From: an uncultured Gammaproteobacteria bacterium
GTDB lineage: Bacteria > Pseudomonadota > Gammaproteobacteria > Magnimaribacterales > Magnimaribacteraceae
Assembly (NCBI GenBank): GCA_913031395.1
Contig: CAJWDT010000005.1
Coordinates: forward strand, 1-58,360
DNA length: 58,360 bases
Direction of reading: 5' to 3'
The notes beneath the pieces are model-generated. The model was not told where the DNA came from and did no database searches. It worked only from the letters and a program-made list of their open reading frames with translations. A program made the translations under genes and the position numbers. How positions within the stretch are numbered: the stretch's first letter is position 1; each line of letters opens with the position of its first letter. Positions 26,296 to 47,876 of the stretch are shown piece by piece.

Positions 26296-26778
26296 ATGAC
26301 AATACAAGTAGGAGATACTTTACCTTCAATTAATTTAACAACTATGACGGCTGAAGGTCCAAAGCCTGTTTCACTGACTGAAATTTCGGCAGGAAAGAAA
26401 ATGGTTCTATTCGCCGTTCCTGGAGCATTCACGCCAACATGTAGTGCTCAACATCTGCCAGGCTTTATTGAAAAAAATAAAGATTTAAAAGAAAAGGGTA
26501 TTGATATAGTGGCATGTGTTTCTGTTAATGACCCCTTTGTAATGAATGCTTGGGGTGAAGATAGAAATGTAGGAGAGGATGTTTTAATGCTTTCAGATGG
26601 TAATGGTGATTTTACAGCTGCTATCGGACTAGAAATGGATGGCAGTGGATTTGGATTGGGAACTAGATCACAACGATACGCAATGATTATTGATGACGGT
26701 GTTGTGTCGGCTTTAAATGTCGAATCCGGACCTGGTTTAGATGTTAGCTCAGCAGAAACAATTTTAGGACAGCTTTAA
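26296..26778 (+). CDS. Peroxiredoxin, Prx5 subfamily
   Basis: This 160-residue thiol peroxidase has the Prx5 active-site motif VPGAFTPTCSAQHLPGF, with peroxidatic Cys49, and the conserved VSVNDPFVMNAWG segment. A later cysteine, C69 in IVACVSVND, lies in the usual Prx5 core strand. It reduces H2O2 and organic hydroperoxides in the cytoplasm with glutathione/glutaredoxin or thioredoxin. TAGGAG precedes the ATG. It is 2 bp upstream of the P450 gene, so detoxification of lipid peroxides beside the oxygenase is plausible, but shared transcription is not proven. Confidence 0.92.
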   Translation: MTIQVGDTLPSINLTTMTAEGPKPVSLTEISAGKKMVLFAVPGAFTPTCSAQHLPGFIEKNKDLKEKGIDIVACVSVNDPFVMNAWGEDRNVGEDVLMLSDGNGDFTAAIGLEMDGSGFGLGTRSQRYAMIIDDGVVSALNVESGPGLDVSSAETILGQL

Positions 26779-26780
26779 AA

Positions 26781-28019
26781 ATGACAAAACCCATTTATGA
26801 CATTGGTCAAATCTGCGAGCTAGATAAATGGGAGAGCTTTATCGATGGTCAACCTTATGATTTATTCAAAAGATTGCGCCATGAAGCACCGATATATTGG
26901 CATGAAGAAAGTTTAGACTTTGAGCCAGGGTTTTGGGCTTTAACAAAACATGAAGATATCGTTAGGGTATCCAAAGATCCTCTAACTTTTTCTTCAGCAG
27001 CTGGTGGGCATTTAATGTCTATGGGCGACCCCAAAGTTGTAGATCCTTCCGCAGTTGCAGCAATCATAGGAAATATGATTGGGATGGACCCGCCTGATCA
27101 TCAAATTTATAGAAAAATGGTTGCTCCTAGTTTTACTCCAAAAGCTATAAGAAATCTTGAAAGTGATATGCGTCAGAAAATTAGAGATCTTTTAGAAAAT
27201 GTTGAGGGTAAAGGTGAATTTAATTTTGTGACAGAGATATCCGAGCAACTTCCCCTATGGGTTTTATGTGAGATGATGGGTATACCTGAATCAGATCGAC
27301 CAAAAATAAGAGATTTAGTCAATAATCTGACTGATGCCTCAATCCAACAAGATCCAGAAAATTCTTTTCAAATATGGGTCAATTATATGGAGCTTTTCAA
27401 GATGGGAAGGGACATGATTGAAGAGCGCAGAAAGAATCCGACTGACGACTTGATGAGTGTTGTGGCTAATACAAGAGTTGAAGGTGGTGAATTACCTCCA
27501 GAACTTTTAGATGGGTTTTTCTTACTAATGGTCATAGCAGGAAATGAGACCACAAGAAATACACTTACTGGCGGCCTTATGGCTCTTACAGAAAATCCGG
27601 AGGAGAGGGCTAAGCTACTTCAAGACCCAACCTTAATATCCAATGCTACTGATGAAATGTTGCGGTGGGTTACATCGGTTATATACTTTAGAAGAACTGC
27701 AATGAAAGATACTAGTATTAGGGGTCAAGACATTAAAGCAGGCGATAAAGTAGTTATGTGGTACGGTTCAGCTAATAGAGATGAAGATATCTTTCCTGAT
27801 GGACATCTGTTCAGAGTGCAAAGAGAAAATGCCAAAAAGCATCTTGCTTTCGGTGCAGGAGAGCATTTATGTCTTGGCAATAGATTAGGTCATATGCAAA
27901 TTAGAATATTATTTGAAGAACTTCTTGCTCGTTTTCCTAATATTCACTCAACTTCAAATCCTGTACGTATCCCTTCAAATTTTTTAGCTGGCATTTCTGA
28001 ATTAAAGGTAAGTTTATAA
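26781..28019 (+). CDS. Cytochrome P450 (CYP125/142-like bacterial class)
   Basis: This 412-residue soluble P450 has a complete core. The I-helix oxygen-activation motif is AGNETT (253-258), the K-helix ExxR is E292-R295 in DEMLRW, and the haem loop is FGAGEHLCLGNRLG with thiolate Cys364. MDPPDHQIYRKMVAPSFTP is typical of bacterial class I enzymes. Similarity of the N-terminus and of FWALTKHEDIVRVSKDP to sterol/fatty-acid omega-hydroxylases is a pattern judgement. Redox partners are not in the window. It is the first gene of a tight four-gene set. Confidence 0.92.
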   Translation: MTKPIYDIGQICELDKWESFIDGQPYDLFKRLRHEAPIYWHEESLDFEPGFWALTKHEDIVRVSKDPLTFSSAAGGHLMSMGDPKVVDPSAVAAIIGNMIGMDPPDHQIYRKMVAPSFTPKAIRNLESDMRQKIRDLLENVEGKGEFNFVTEISEQLPLWVLCEMMGIPESDRPKIRDLVNNLTDASIQQDPENSFQIWVNYMELFKMGRDMIEERRKNPTDDLMSVVANTRVEGGELPPELLDGFFLLMVIAGNETTRNTLTGGLMALTENPEERAKLLQDPTLISNATDEMLRWVTSVIYFRRTAMKDTSIRGQDIKAGDKVVMWYGSANRDEDIFPDGHLFRVQRENAKKHLAFGAGEHLCLGNRLGHMQIRILFEELLARFPNIHSTSNPVRIPSNFLAGISELKVSL

Positions 28020-28020
28020 T

Positions 28021-29109
28021 ATGATTTCTAAAGGCGATGATTATCCAATACATCAACTACCTACCCCAGTTGCTGAAGTTGGTTCCGAAAGGAATTTTTA
28101 TGATAGATATTTCTTCAATGGTTATAGCCAAGATGGCAATATCTTTTTTGCTGCCGCGTTTTGTGTATATCCAAATTTGAATGTTAAAGATGCAAGCTTT
28201 GTCTTGGTTCTAAATGGAGTTCAACATAATTTCAGGTATTCAGATGTGCTCAATCAAGAAAGACTCAACACAGAAGTAGGAAATTTCAGAATAGAAATAA
28301 TCCAACCTCTCAAAGAGCTAAAAATAACTTTAGATGATAAGGATAAAGAAATCTCAGTTGATCTAAATTTCCTTGGAAAATTTGAGCCTATGGAAGAACC
28401 AAGAATGACAATAAAAAATGGTTCTAGGGTATATATGGACTCAACCCGAATGACTCAGCATGGCTCTTGGACTGGATCAATACAATTTAAGGAAGAGAAG
28501 ATTCCAATTTCACCAGAAGACTATTGTGGAACTAGAGATAGATCTTGGGGAGTCAGGCCTGTAGGTTTACCTGATGCTCAAATAATGCCACCAATGAAGC
28601 TCCCACAATTCTATTGGTTATGGGCTCCCGCAAACTTTCTAGATCAATCATCCCATCTTTACTTCGTTGATGATGAGAACGGTAGAGCAACTAATAGCCA
28701 TTGTGTCCAACAAAGTAAATCACAAAGCTTAAAACTCCATAACTTACAGAAAAAAATTGAGTATCAACCAAACTCAAGAAGGATAATGAAAGCAGATTTT
28801 GAGGCTGAAAAAGAAGACGGTGTAATTGTCACTTGGTCGTTAATGCCAAAATATCACATGTATATGTGTGGCTTAGGCTATATGCACCCAGACTGGGGCC
28901 ATGGAATTTTTCATGGAGAAAACCAATCTCTATATGACTCTTATGATCTTAGCCAAGACCCCCATGATCCTCCTTTTCTTCATATACAAGCAATTTGCAA
29001 CTTTGTGATGCAAGATGGTGATACCAAAACTCAAGGTATAGGCGTCTTAGAGCAGCTACTAATTGGCCCTCACTTTCCAAGTGGCTTTGAAGGTCTTCTA
29101 GACGGATAA
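28021..29109 (+). CDS. Conserved protein of unknown function between P450 and kinase
   Basis: This 362-residue protein has no signal peptide or transmembrane helix. It is beta-strand and tryptophan rich, and its best mark is CGTRDRSWGVRPVG near residue 180, followed by FYWLWAPANF. I recall similar proteins beside P450 and CoA genes in actinobacteria and marine gammaproteobacteria, with a lipocalin-like CrtC/AttH-type fold as one possibility, but I cannot confirm it. Its start is 1 bp after the P450 stop and the kinase follows after 4 bp, indicating co-expression and possibly a shared lipid substrate. Confidence 0.6.
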   Translation: MISKGDDYPIHQLPTPVAEVGSERNFYDRYFFNGYSQDGNIFFAAAFCVYPNLNVKDASFVLVLNGVQHNFRYSDVLNQERLNTEVGNFRIEIIQPLKELKITLDDKDKEISVDLNFLGKFEPMEEPRMTIKNGSRVYMDSTRMTQHGSWTGSIQFKEEKIPISPEDYCGTRDRSWGVRPVGLPDAQIMPPMKLPQFYWLWAPANFLDQSSHLYFVDDENGRATNSHCVQQSKSQSLKLHNLQKKIEYQPNSRRIMKADFEAEKEDGVIVTWSLMPKYHMYMCGLGYMHPDWGHGIFHGENQSLYDSYDLSQDPHDPPFLHIQAICNFVMQDGDTKTQGIGVLEQLLIGPHFPSGFEGLLDG

Positions 29110-29113
29110 GCAA

Positions 29114-30118
29114 ATGTCTGAAGAACTTTCCTCAAAGTTTATTAGTTATTATTCAAGCTTTTCGAACAAAGACTATTCTTTAGTTAGTTTTGAAAGAATC
29201 TTTGGCGGTGCAAGTAGAGAAACATACAAGATTGAAGTTAAAGGAGACACAGTTGAAAGATTAATTCTCCGTGTTACTCAAGATAGTTCACTTATTGAGA
29301 CCGAGCAAGAAACAGAGTATTTGGCCTACTCAGCGTTTCAAAACTCCGCGGTCCCCGTGCCAGACTTATTAGATATGTCCGAAGATAAAAATATCTTGGG
29401 TGCTCCATTTATGTTGATGAAAGAACTAAAAGGAGAAGCTGCCAGTCCTTTTACTCCTGGTGTTTATTCACCAAATGAAAAAAAATTGGGCTACCAATTT
29501 TGGTCTATTCTTGGAGAGATAGCTAAAAAAGATATCAATAAAGATATCTTTGAGACTCTTGCTGAAGAGTTATCTTCACCAAGCTGGAAGAACGAGCTCG
29601 ATAAGTGGGTCAAAGTAATTCATGAAGACTCGATTAGTATAGAACCTATATTAGAAGCAGGCATAAGAACTTTATATAGAAACCCTCCCAAGGAACCTGA
29701 GAGGCTCTCTATAGTTCATGGAGATTATAGGAGCGGAAATTTCCTTTTTCTGAATGATCAAATTACAGGGATACTTGATTGGGAAATGGCCCATATTGGA
29801 AACCCTCTGGAGGATTTAGGCTGGGCACTCTCACCCATTTGGAGTTGGCAAGACAGAAAACGTCCTGGTTATTTAATTCAAAAGGAAGAAGCATTGAAAG
29901 TCTGGGAAAGTTCTAGCAACATTAAAGTGGATCCTGTGGAACTTAAATGGTGGGAATTATTCGCAGCTGTAAAAGGCATGGCTATTTGGATTTCGGCCGG
30001 CAATGAATTTAAATCTGGTAAGAATATTGATCCTATAAATCTATTCTCTGCATGGATACCTGGAGACATTCATCTTGAAGTAATTCTTGATATTTTAGAG
30101 GACAACAATGAAGCCTGA
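29114..30118 (+). CDS. APH-fold phosphotransferase (LvaA / ACAD10-11 kinase-domain-like)
   Basis: This 334-residue kinase-like protein has the glycine-rich loop FGGASRETYKIEV (residues about 35-47), the catalytic HGDYRSGNFLF segment (Brenner motif HGDxxxxN) near residue 200, and the metal-binding DWEMAHIGNPLEDLGW. Homologues include the kinase domain of ACAD10/11 and Pseudomonas LvaA, which phosphorylate 4-hydroxyacyl-CoAs. Antibiotic resistance is unlikely given this context. It overlaps the downstream DUF6285-like gene by 11 bp, as a kinase and helper would. Confidence 0.85.
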   Translation: MSEELSSKFISYYSSFSNKDYSLVSFERIFGGASRETYKIEVKGDTVERLILRVTQDSSLIETEQETEYLAYSAFQNSAVPVPDLLDMSEDKNILGAPFMLMKELKGEAASPFTPGVYSPNEKKLGYQFWSILGEIAKKDINKDIFETLAEELSSPSWKNELDKWVKVIHEDSISIEPILEAGIRTLYRNPPKEPERLSIVHGDYRSGNFLFLNDQITGILDWEMAHIGNPLEDLGWALSPIWSWQDRKRPGYLIQKEEALKVWESSSNIKVDPVELKWWELFAAVKGMAIWISAGNEFKSGKNIDPINLFSAWIPGDIHLEVILDILEDNNEA

Positions 30119-30545
30119 TATAAATGAAGCATTACTTAATGCGGCTCAAGAGATTATCGGAAGATTTAGCCCTCTTATTGAGGATGAGTATGAGAGATCT
30201 AGATTAGGATCTTGGGGGGCCTTAATTCTTATATCTGCTATGAAGTTTAATGATGCTGGATCGGCGCTATATAAAGAAAATGAAGATATAGTTTTATGGT
30301 TGAGAGATTACACCAACCTAGACTCCGAAGAATTAACAAATTTAGATATAAAAGCATATCAAGATGTAAGCACCGTTGACAAAATCAATCAGGAATTGAG
30401 AGAGTTGCTTAACCGAGAGTTTATGGCACTTGAAGATTCGGGAGACAAAGTCGGTATTAGGTCAGGATTAGTGTTAATGAGGACCATGCATCAAAGAAGG
30501 AAGGTGAGCGACTTAATTGGTTTATTACAAGTTCCAGAGGATTAG
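30108..30545 (+). CDS. DUF6285-like small protein, possible LvaB-type kinase partner
   Basis: This 145-residue, largely helical protein has no export signal. It begins MKPDINEALLNAAQEIIGRF and contains YERSRLGSWGALILISAMKF, which resembles the DUF6285 proteins encoded after APH-type kinases. In the Pseudomonas levulinate pathway the small LvaB is needed for LvaA activity; I infer an equivalent accessory role here. The 11-bp overlap with the kinase gene supports co-translation. Assignment to the DUF is from memory of the pattern, not from a search. Confidence 0.65.
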   Translation: MKPDINEALLNAAQEIIGRFSPLIEDEYERSRLGSWGALILISAMKFNDAGSALYKENEDIVLWLRDYTNLDSEELTNLDIKAYQDVSTVDKINQELRELLNREFMALEDSGDKVGIRSGLVLMRTMHQRRKVSDLIGLLQVPED

Positions 30546-30758: not shown

Positions 30759-31814
30759 CTATTTTTCTGAAATTTTTAACGAAAATTCTACTATTCCTAT
30801 ACCGTTTTCTCCTCGAATCGAGTAAAGAAGGTAATTTTTACCATTTTCTGAATAAATAGCTGGATCTCTCAGTTGGTTAACTGGGATATTGATTGCACTT
30901 TCTATAGATTTATAAAGAGGCAATGAAGCACCTTCCCACTCTCTTTCAGGTTTCAAAACTTCGATAGGTTTAGATGATGTCCATAGATGTAAGGGCATAG
31001 TAAGATCCAATGTGCTTAATAGGATCCTTTCAGGAGAATCTCCTTTTCTTGTGAAAAAAATAAATAATTTATTATCATTAACCAACACAGCTGAATGTCT
31101 GGTATTTTCTTCCATAACCTGATTTACAATTCTGAAATCTTCTATATCGCCGTTATTTTTATAAATAACCCCAGGCATCGAGAGCGCGTAGTTAATATCT
31201 TTATAGGAAAATCTTCTAAAATAAGGCCAACCTACAATTTTTTTTCTAGCTATAAAATTAATACCATCCTCGGATGTGGCTACCCTAGTTTTTTGAAGCC
31301 CGAATTCGTCTAAGCCATGATAATACATAATTATTCTTTCATTAGAATCATCTACATGAGCATCTGGTGACGCAATATGTGGAATTGTAAGATCATCTAT
31401 CTTTTTTGGTATGTAATTAATGAGATCTGGATGGGCATTTCTTGTTCCTAGAGTCTCAAGATCAAAATTTTCAGGAATATCTGGCATCTCTTTAAGAAAA
31501 TATGAATCTTGAAGGTTTAATGTTCCTCCAGGATGTATTGTCCAGGGTCCTGTTAATTTATCAGCAAAGGCTAATTTAATCCTGTCCCCTTTATGATCCG
31601 CAAAGTATAAATAATACTTTCCTAGAGGATCTTTTAACCAGGCCGGGGCTCTAATTAAGGATGGGCCTTGTACATTTTCTCCAATCTCTTCTAAAAGAAG
31701 AGGAGGGATAATTGGTTCATCAATAATACGAATAATTTCTATTTGCACATTTGTTTCTCTTTCGCTGCATCCAAATACTAAAGTCAAAATGATCAATAAA
31801 AAATATCTATTCAT
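30759..31814 (-). CDS. Lipoprotein with glycosidase-like beta-propeller (GH43-type fold)
   Basis: This 351-residue protein has a lipoprotein signal ending LVFGC (Cys16). The body has repeated strand motifs typical of five-bladed-propeller glycan enzymes: SLIRAPAWLKDPLGKYYLYFADHKGDRIKLAFADKL-like first blade features, AHPDLINY, SPDAHVDDSNERIIMYYHG, and LRDPAIYSENGKNYLLYSI. Catalytic carboxylates cannot be assigned securely, so activity on a polysaccharide is inferred from the fold only. It would be anchored in the periplasm or outer membrane. It is divergent from parE with a 66-bp spacer. Confidence 0.65.
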   Translation of the reverse strand: MNRYFLLIILTLVFGCSERETNVQIEIIRIIDEPIIPPLLLEEIGENVQGPSLIRAPAWLKDPLGKYYLYFADHKGDRIKLAFADKLTGPWTIHPGGTLNLQDSYFLKEMPDIPENFDLETLGTRNAHPDLINYIPKKIDDLTIPHIASPDAHVDDSNERIIMYYHGLDEFGLQKTRVATSEDGINFIARKKIVGWPYFRRFSYKDINYALSMPGVIYKNNGDIEDFRIVNQVMEENTRHSAVLVNDNKLFIFFTRKGDSPERILLSTLDLTMPLHLWTSSKPIEVLKPEREWEGASLPLYKSIESAINIPVNQLRDPAIYSENGKNYLLYSIRGENGIGIVEFSLKISEK

Positions 31815-46475: not shown

Positions 46476-47876
46476 TTAGCCCTGTCTCCAGTTTCCATGA
46501 AATCCATAAGGAATTCTATGAGGTAACATGGCCTTGGCAAGTGGACCGCTCGATATATTTTCTGCATCGAATATCATAAGATCAGATCTATTTTCTTTTC
46601 CAAGATAAGCTAGTGCAATTAAGAAACCCTGTCCTTCATCTGAATTTTTATTCTTGGGAACAAATATAGGTTCACCAACAGCATCAAATTCTGTCAGGGT
46701 GAAACTATCTTTATAACCTGTATCAAAATTATAGCTAGTAACAGTATTAAAACTTACCCCTTTAGGTGATTTACCATCATTAGATGCGTAATAGCCGTAT
46801 TTATATTTAGACATGGCTTTCCTTTCATCAAGTCTTGGAAATTCTCCTATACTGTCATCAAGATATTGCTTTTTAATAGATCCAGAATTTGAACTAAAAT
46901 CTATCTCCCATCGATTCAATCTAGCCTCTCCTTTCTTTAAATCAGGACGAGATCCGTCAAGGTGAGGAAACATCGGTGCTTCTTCAAACTGCATCATGTC
47001 TGCAATTATTTTTCCATCAGCCTCATAAGCATTCATGGGATGAAAAACATAACAAGGGTCGCTTTCTATCCACTTAATGTCATTAATTGAGCCATCCCTA
47101 GGCATGACGCCGATTTGACTAGGCCTATTTGCATCCCAGGCTAGAGGTGATTTGCCCTCAGCAATGAGTTTAAAATCGATAATTAGTGGAAAAATAGGGA
47201 AAATGACATGCTTAGTCGTCACAATAAAATCATGAACCATACTTGAGTAAGGTGTTTCAAATTCGGAATATGTAGTTAGGATACCGTCAGAATTTACTAC
47301 GAAGTAGCTCATTTTATTAACTCCAAAACCGTAACTAAAACTTATCATATCACCAGTAACTGGATCAATTTTAGGATGAGCTGTCATAGCTGAGTTTAGC
47401 TTGCCTTTATAGTCCCAGGCTCCTTTCGATTGCAGTGTTATCGGATCGAGCTCAAAAGGTTTATGGCCTTCTTCAAGGGCTAATAACTTTCCAGAATGAA
47501 AAACTATATTAGTATTGGCAGTTCCATCTTCTCCTTCAAAATTAAATTCAGGGTCAGGCTCCATTGGATTTAAAGAATTAATTAGTGCTCTTCCTGCTTT
47601 CCTCTCTTGTTTCCATTTTGAAGTTTGAGCCCAGCGATTTAAATAAGATATTTTGCCATTTTCAAAGTGAAATGCATGAACCATTCCATCTCCTGCAAAC
47701 CAGTGATAATCTCCTCCCATTGGTGGGAATTGCGGGTCAGGACCATTTCTATAGTAGCTGCCCAATAAATCTCTTGGTACTTCTCCTTCGATTATTAAAT
47801 CTTGAATATCGCACTCCATTCTTAATGGAGCATAGTTGCCTCTTAAATTAGGATGGTCAGGGTACAATTCAGTCAT
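46476..47876 (-). CDS. Carotenoid cleavage oxygenase (RPE65 family)
   Basis: This 466-residue non-haem iron enzyme has a seven-bladed-propeller fold. All four iron-ligating histidines can be placed: H167 (TAHPKID), H215 (MVHDFI), H279 (YVFHPMNAYE) and H460 (GFHGNW). The N-terminus LLGSYYRNGPDPQFPP and HWFAGDGMVHAF are typical. Substrates in this family include carotenoids, apocarotenoids and lignin-derived stilbenes. Retinal supply for a proteorhodopsin is possible but not shown by anything here. It starts inside the last codons of the upstream DedA gene (8-bp overlap). Confidence 0.9.
   Translation of the reverse strand: MTELYPDHPNLRGNYAPLRMECDIQDLIIEGEVPRDLLGSYYRNGPDPQFPPMGGDYHWFAGDGMVHAFHFENGKISYLNRWAQTSKWKQERKAGRALINSLNPMEPDPEFNFEGEDGTANTNIVFHSGKLLALEEGHKPFELDPITLQSKGAWDYKGKLNSAMTAHPKIDPVTGDMISFSYGFGVNKMSYFVVNSDGILTTYSEFETPYSSMVHDFIVTTKHVIFPIFPLIIDFKLIAEGKSPLAWDANRPSQIGVMPRDGSINDIKWIESDPCYVFHPMNAYEADGKIIADMMQFEEAPMFPHLDGSRPDLKKGEARLNRWEIDFSSNSGSIKKQYLDDSIGEFPRLDERKAMSKYKYGYYASNDGKSPKGVSFNTVTSYNFDTGYKDSFTLTEFDAVGEPIFVPKNKNSDEGQGFLIALAYLGKENRSDLMIFDAENISSGPLAKAMLPHRIPYGFHGNWRQG

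Follow-up and report, generated by a model that had tools for sequence, protein, structure and literature searches.

In Sterolibacterium denitrificans, a 25-hydroxysteroid kinase (25-HSK) forms a 25-phosphosteroid from which phosphate is lost to leave a delta-24 alkene (PMC7411048, PMC8449060, PMC11061730). The hydroxyl group is derived from water via a molybdenum enzyme, the lyase was termed putative as late as in a 2024 paper, and no lyase candidate was located close to the kinase gene (PMC8449060). No publication describing the solved 25-phosphosteroid lyase (25-PSL) enzyme or its gene was found in the literature that we searched. In Mycobacterium tuberculosis, Rv3168 and Rv3169 form an operon in which an APH-type kinase adjoins an Rv3169-family protein and which, as described, includes neither a small protein nor a P450 (PMC5340868). 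A phosphorylate-then-eliminate logic is also found in LvaA/LvaB of Pseudomonas putida and in ACAD10/11, where an acyl-CoA dehydrogenase performs the elimination. LvaB is a protein of about 12 kDa that binds LvaA, and phosphorylation needs both, according to the account of Rand et al. 2017 given in PMC6692424.

The operon described here is related to all of these systems and identical to none. Kinase plus lyase logic is common to it and the Sterolibacterium cascade and the two lyases are clearly homologous, but here the lyase gene lies directly before the kinase gene, the hydroxyl group would presumably come from O2 via a P450, and the kinase belongs to another clade and has an extra small partner. 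The APH-type kinase adjoining an Rv3169-family protein is as in Rv3168-Rv3169, although Rv3168 carries the motif WGDxRxGN and lies on the 25-HSK-like side, whereas the kinase described here has HGDYRSGN. The nearer relatives of this kinase are found among LvaA and ACAD10/11, and as in LvaA/LvaB a small helical protein is encoded directly 3' of it; unlike in those systems, an Rv3169-family lyase takes the place of the acyl-CoA dehydrogenase, the small protein fails the DUF6285 model and the unit lacks a CoA ligase.

Organization and conservation of the operon

The window, i.e. the whole stretch of 58,360 nucleotides that was analysed (contig C5 of an assembly of 1.08 Mb, 81% complete), comes from a SAR86-clade gammaproteobacterium, and the named relatives that share this locus belong to the SAR86 cluster. 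According to a first-pass annotation, the unit has four genes, the first three spaced by 1 bp and 4 bp and the last two sharing an 11-bp overlap, and the kinase carries the Brenner motif HGDYRSGNF. The open reading frames, their spacing and the motif were confirmed (Table 1), whereas the extent of the unit had to be revised to five genes, since a peroxiredoxin gene is located at the 5' end. The gap between the peroxiredoxin and P450 genes is 2 bp, and the two genes adjoin each other in all relatives whose contig extends that far.

Table 1. Genes of the operon, with positions in the window and the evidence for each assignment.
Feature	Position	Strand	Evidence
Peroxiredoxin (Redoxin PF08534)	26296..26778	+	Pfam 138.7 bits; first gene of the unit
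Cytochrome P450, 412 aa	26781..28019	+	Pfam p450; AGNETTRN and FGAGEHLCLG motifs; CYP125/126/124 side
Phosphosteroid-lyase homologue (Rv3169 family), 362 aa	28021..29109	+	NCBIfam Rv3169_fam (NF053593) 354.3 bits, residues 3-348, cut-off 150
APH-fold small-molecule kinase, 334 aa	29114..30118	+	Pfam APH 110.5 bits; HGDYRSGNF and ILDWE motifs
Small all-helical protein, 145 aa	30108..30545	+	Undescribed family; distant DUF6285/LvaB-like profile

The order peroxiredoxin-P450-lyase-kinase-small protein was complete in 27/30 loci of the SAR86 family to which the window belongs (f1), where the locus is flanked by a tolC-like gene and gyrB, and the remaining 3/30 loci were interrupted by contig ends. 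This conservation of gene order is far beyond chance. Rv3169-family carriers, counted as genomes with a match above the NF053593 cut-off of 150 bits, made up 41/61 SAR86-order genomes, with 31/35 in f1, 3/9 in family f2, 7/9 in f3 and 0/8 in f4. No P450 was located beside the lyase in the f2 and f3 loci that were read, and a different kinase then follows the lyase in f3, in one f2 genome and in some marine alphaproteobacterial groups. In most named loci outside the family of the window, the kinase lies directly 3' of the lyase.

A P450 directly adjoining the lyase was rare outside f1 (3 clear cases in about 77 loci). Parvibaculum sedimenti (locus L120) has P450, lyase, kinase and small protein in the same order as the window, a Halieaceae MAG (L100) has a P450-lyase-kinase set, and genome G369 (L210) has all four genes together with the lyase divergent from P450-kinase-small protein. 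A fusion of kinase and small protein in G369, suggested by the length of the open frame, was discarded when translation gave two overlapping genes. A survey of 299 genomes from the phylum gave 12 with the lyase. Four of these 12 also had the small protein, encoded close to the lyase, and no genome had it without the lyase. Co-occurrence of all four genes in relatives, on which the first-pass annotation had made its proposal depend, was thus observed in the f1 loci, in Parvibaculum sedimenti and in G369.

A homologue of 25-phosphosteroid lyase

The gene following the P450 gene, to which no role had been assigned previously, encodes a member of the Rv3169 family. Its only relatives in the PDB were the entries for 25-PSL (9fzn, 9g2i and 9g4c; E 9.5e-42, residues 2-300), with an identity of 39.5% over residues 2-201. 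Within residues 2-201, 52 positions were near-invariant, defined as at least 95% conserved among 79 relatives, and 25-PSL has the same residue at 40 of the 52, those of the RDRSWG.R block among them. Arg and His residues that are conserved in the lyase include R24, R29, R143, R172, R174, R179 and H11. By sequence, this gene product is a homologue of 25-PSL and a candidate for the elimination step. An acyl-CoA dehydrogenase, which had been suggested for this step, is absent from the unit and the nearest one lies more than 8 kb away.

Kinase clades and the small protein

The solved structures nearest to the window kinase were 3dxp, 9o56 and ACAD11. An aminoglycoside or macrolide kinase was rejected on the NCBIfam equivalog/exception cut-offs (APH_3p 33.8 bits against a cut-off of 205, others lower). 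The nearness to ACAD11 agrees with the resemblance to ACAD10/11 stated in the first-pass annotation. Kinases adjoining the lyase fell into three clades, each on one side of a tree branch: the window type (support 98/94), a clade denoted kin3 from other SAR86 families and the PS1/OCS116 groups (100/100) and a sphingomonad-type clade denoted c5 (100/100). The nearest PDB entry to kin3, which carries WGDxRxGN, was 9fsg (E 3.9e-35), followed by Rv3168 (1.2e-31). The entry 9fsg is labelled only 'aminoglycoside phosphotransferase-like', and judging from its size and the neighbouring accession numbers it is probably the Sterolibacterium 25-HSK. The match of the window kinase to 9fsg was weak (E 2e-5) compared with that of the f3 SAR86 kinase (about 4e-35), and given this value, the separate clade and HGDYRSGN instead of WGDxRxGN, the window kinase was not regarded as a member of the 25-HSK/Rv3168 clade. 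By branch length the window-type clade is nearer to the DUF6285-linked (LvaA-type) kinases than to the 25-HSK type, the branching order of the clades not being settled; this agrees with the likeness to LvaA proposed earlier.

The lyase tree united the f1 lyases with those accompanying kin3 (SH-aLRT 100) and the kinase tree did not unite the corresponding kinases. Replacement of the kinase next to a lyase that stayed in place accounts best for this disagreement. Outside SAR86, profile searches located the small-protein family directly after 20/20 kinases of the window type and after no kinase of another type. The lyase is paired with three kinase clades and the small protein strictly with one. 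Given the disagreement of the two trees, kinase and small protein seem to have been swapped jointly while the lyase next to them stayed the same.

The small protein had no significant match in Pfam, NCBIfam or the PDB, and a fold search of its predicted model against the PDB gave nothing at E <= 0.001. Of the earlier suggestion that it is LvaB/DUF6285-like, membership was lost, since the Pfam scan gave no match to DUF6285 (PF19802), and a distant relationship was retained as probable. Alignment with a DUF6285 profile built from short proteins only gave an hhalign E of 1.5e-4 and a probability of 51%, and the score of 22, above the highest value from 60 column shuffles (15.7), came mostly from the N-terminal helix. 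In the models the first two helices are alike (H5-23 and H27-68, 19 and 42 residues; H8-26 and H29-67, 19 and 39 residues in DUF6285). Taken together, profile and helix layout suggest that the small protein is probably a distant relative of DUF6285/LvaB and not a member. Given that LvaB binds LvaA and that both are required, an activator of the kinase would be the natural guess for its role. The sole DUF6285 gene of the genome lies elsewhere, on contig C18. At another locus (L166) a kinase and DUF6285 are fused into one open reading frame.

P450 and substrate context

The best PDB matches of the P450 were CYP125MRCA (332 bits), CYP126 (267), CYP268 (246) and CYP124 (245), with M. tuberculosis CYP125 at about 224 bits, a comparison based on scores and not on a tree of named P450s. 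None of the papers found describes CYP125, CYP126 or CYP124 in an operon with a kinase and a lyase. Across the SAR86 family of the window the P450 is 71-95% identical.

Comparisons of SAR86 genomes, among them an earlier survey of three genomes (PMC4810484), reported that sterol side-chain genes are widespread and ring-cleavage genes present in few genera, with cyp125-like genes in one SAR86 family (PMC11582366). The KshA_C domain was absent from the genome of the window, from its genus and from 32/34 of its family members, and was found in only 4/61 SAR86 genomes. Full steroid-ring degradation is not supported on this ground, and a role restricted to sterol side chains, or another isoprenoid substrate, is likelier. 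The absence of KshA is consistent with the report that SAR86 side-chain genes mostly occur without ring cleavage (PMC11582366). As a core operon at a fixed locus, the unit may act on a house-keeping substrate.

Discussion

The gene relationships suggest that the reaction type is likely to be hydroxylation followed by phosphorylation and phosphate elimination. The P450 would hydroxylate the substrate, the kinase and small protein together (as LvaA with LvaB) would phosphorylate the new hydroxyl, and the Rv3169-family lyase would expel inorganic phosphate, giving an alkene open to oxidation in later steps, while the peroxiredoxin would probably remove peroxide leaking from the P450. Each of these reactions and the sequence in which they occur are inferred, as are the tertiary position and the class of substrate. 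We propose, with a probability of roughly 0.58, that the operon uses O2 and ATP to desaturate, with net dehydration, the side chain of a sterol or other isoprenoid at a hindered and probably tertiary carbon. Of the pathway 'hydroxylate, activate, phosphorylate, eliminate' in the first-pass annotation, this retains three steps, which the presence of a 25-PSL homologue in the unit partly supports, and drops activation. Several observations argue against the proposal. The kinase is outside the 25-HSK clade and appears nearer to kinases acting on 4-hydroxyacyl-CoAs, and a P450 beside the lyase is uncommon outside f1. CYP125-type P450s normally hydroxylate the primary C26 and not the tertiary C25, and this P450 may belong with either CYP125 or CYP126/124. 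The absence of KshA and the possible house-keeping substrate of a core operon count on the same side.

The affinities of the kinase would also fit the same chemistry on a CoA thioester, in which a fatty or sterol acid is hydroxylated by the P450 and activated by a ligase encoded elsewhere, the kinase and small protein phosphorylate the hydroxyacyl-CoA, and the lyase acts in place of the acyl-CoA dehydrogenase. The substrate of LvaA/LvaB and of ACAD10/11 is 4-hydroxyacyl-CoA, the kinase has 3dxp and ACAD11 as its nearest solved relatives and belongs to a clade close to the DUF6285-linked kinases, and the small protein is distantly LvaB-like. However, neither a ligase nor an acyl-CoA dehydrogenase is present in the unit, the only lyase-family member studied uses free 25-phosphosteroids, and a separate acyl-CoA dehydrogenase-kinase-DUF6285 unit on C18 looks suited to that job, and we therefore consider CoA-thioester activation, as originally annotated, unlikely. 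Slightly less probable still is that the operon serves two branches, the P450 being a CYP125-like C26 hydroxylase of the sterol side chain and the other three proteins clearing tertiary (25-OH) sterols that are imported or arise as by-products. The top match to CYP125MRCA, the report of cyp125-like genes from a SAR86 family (PMC11582366) and the occurrence of most kinase-lyase pairs without a P450 would be expected in that case, whereas a tight and conserved arrangement in which the P450 immediately precedes the lyase, and the finding of the four genes together in unrelated bacteria as well, would not.

The fixed chromosomal place in nearly the whole of f1, the lack of KshA and the conservation of the P450, which among close relatives is about that of the gyrase subunits, are compatible with a role in making or maintaining a core isoprenoid (quinone, carotenoid or hopanoid-like lipid) instead of catabolism of dietary sterols. 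Core biosynthesis would not be expected to be missing from one SAR86 family (f4), patchy in another and present in 12/299 genomes of the phylum, as the lyase is, and we regard this explanation as improbable.

A general aerobic route for the desaturation of tertiary carbons, consisting of a P450, a two-part kinase with a new family of helical activators and an Rv3169-family lyase, used by surface-ocean SAR86 on the side chains of algal sterols or isoprenoids and in which the two kinase components are exchanged as a cassette next to an unchanging lyase, is a tentative extension to which we give somewhat less than even odds. ATP-dependent dehydration of a tertiary alcohol via a phosphate ester has so far been shown in one anaerobic sterol degrader. 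Parvibaculum sedimenti, a cultured species carrying all four genes, allows a direct test, and the analysis provides a candidate role for the Rv3169 family and recognises an undescribed family of kinase partners. If the same dehydration does follow a P450, this chemistry would reach aerobes, including one of the most abundant lineages of the surface ocean, and an extension to mycobacteria through Rv3168-Rv3169 would be plausible.

Genes accompanying the predicted phosphosteroid lyase

A zinc-type MDR dehydrogenase was found repeatedly in loci that carry the lyase and a kinase (L092, L095, L106, L107, L120 and L128), and these six loci span two kinase types. The dehydrogenase might serve in alkene reduction.

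In many loci of the SAR86 family of the window, the gene of a lipoprotein-like protein, for which there was no Pfam match, is located between the operon and gyrB. The 344-aa open frame in genome G000, possibly a distant paralogue, has counterparts throughout the SAR86 family. A single genome of another SAR86 family (G039, locus L069) has the lyase gene broken up into two ORFs, perhaps as a pseudogene or through an assembly error.

Features outside the operon
Feature	Location	Coordinates	Strand
ACAD - APH kinase - DUF6285 set	L001, own genome, contig C18	9543-12803	
Fused LvaA-type kinase and DUF6285, single 453-aa protein	L166	1441-2802 (ORF)	-
344-aa open frame, weak Rv3169-family similarity (28 bits)	G000, contig C2	75682-76401	
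Lipoprotein-like protein, 351 aa	Window	30762-31814	-
RPE65-type carotenoid oxygenase	Window	46479-47876	-

The set on contig C18, which is adjoined by SDR genes, is of the ordinary LvaA/LvaB-like kind and separate from the window operon. An acyl-CoA dehydrogenase adjoins the fused ORF in L166. In a Desulfobacteraceae genome (L129), an LvaA-type kinase and DUF6285 on the opposite strand adjoin the lyase, and are a possible further kinase partner for it.
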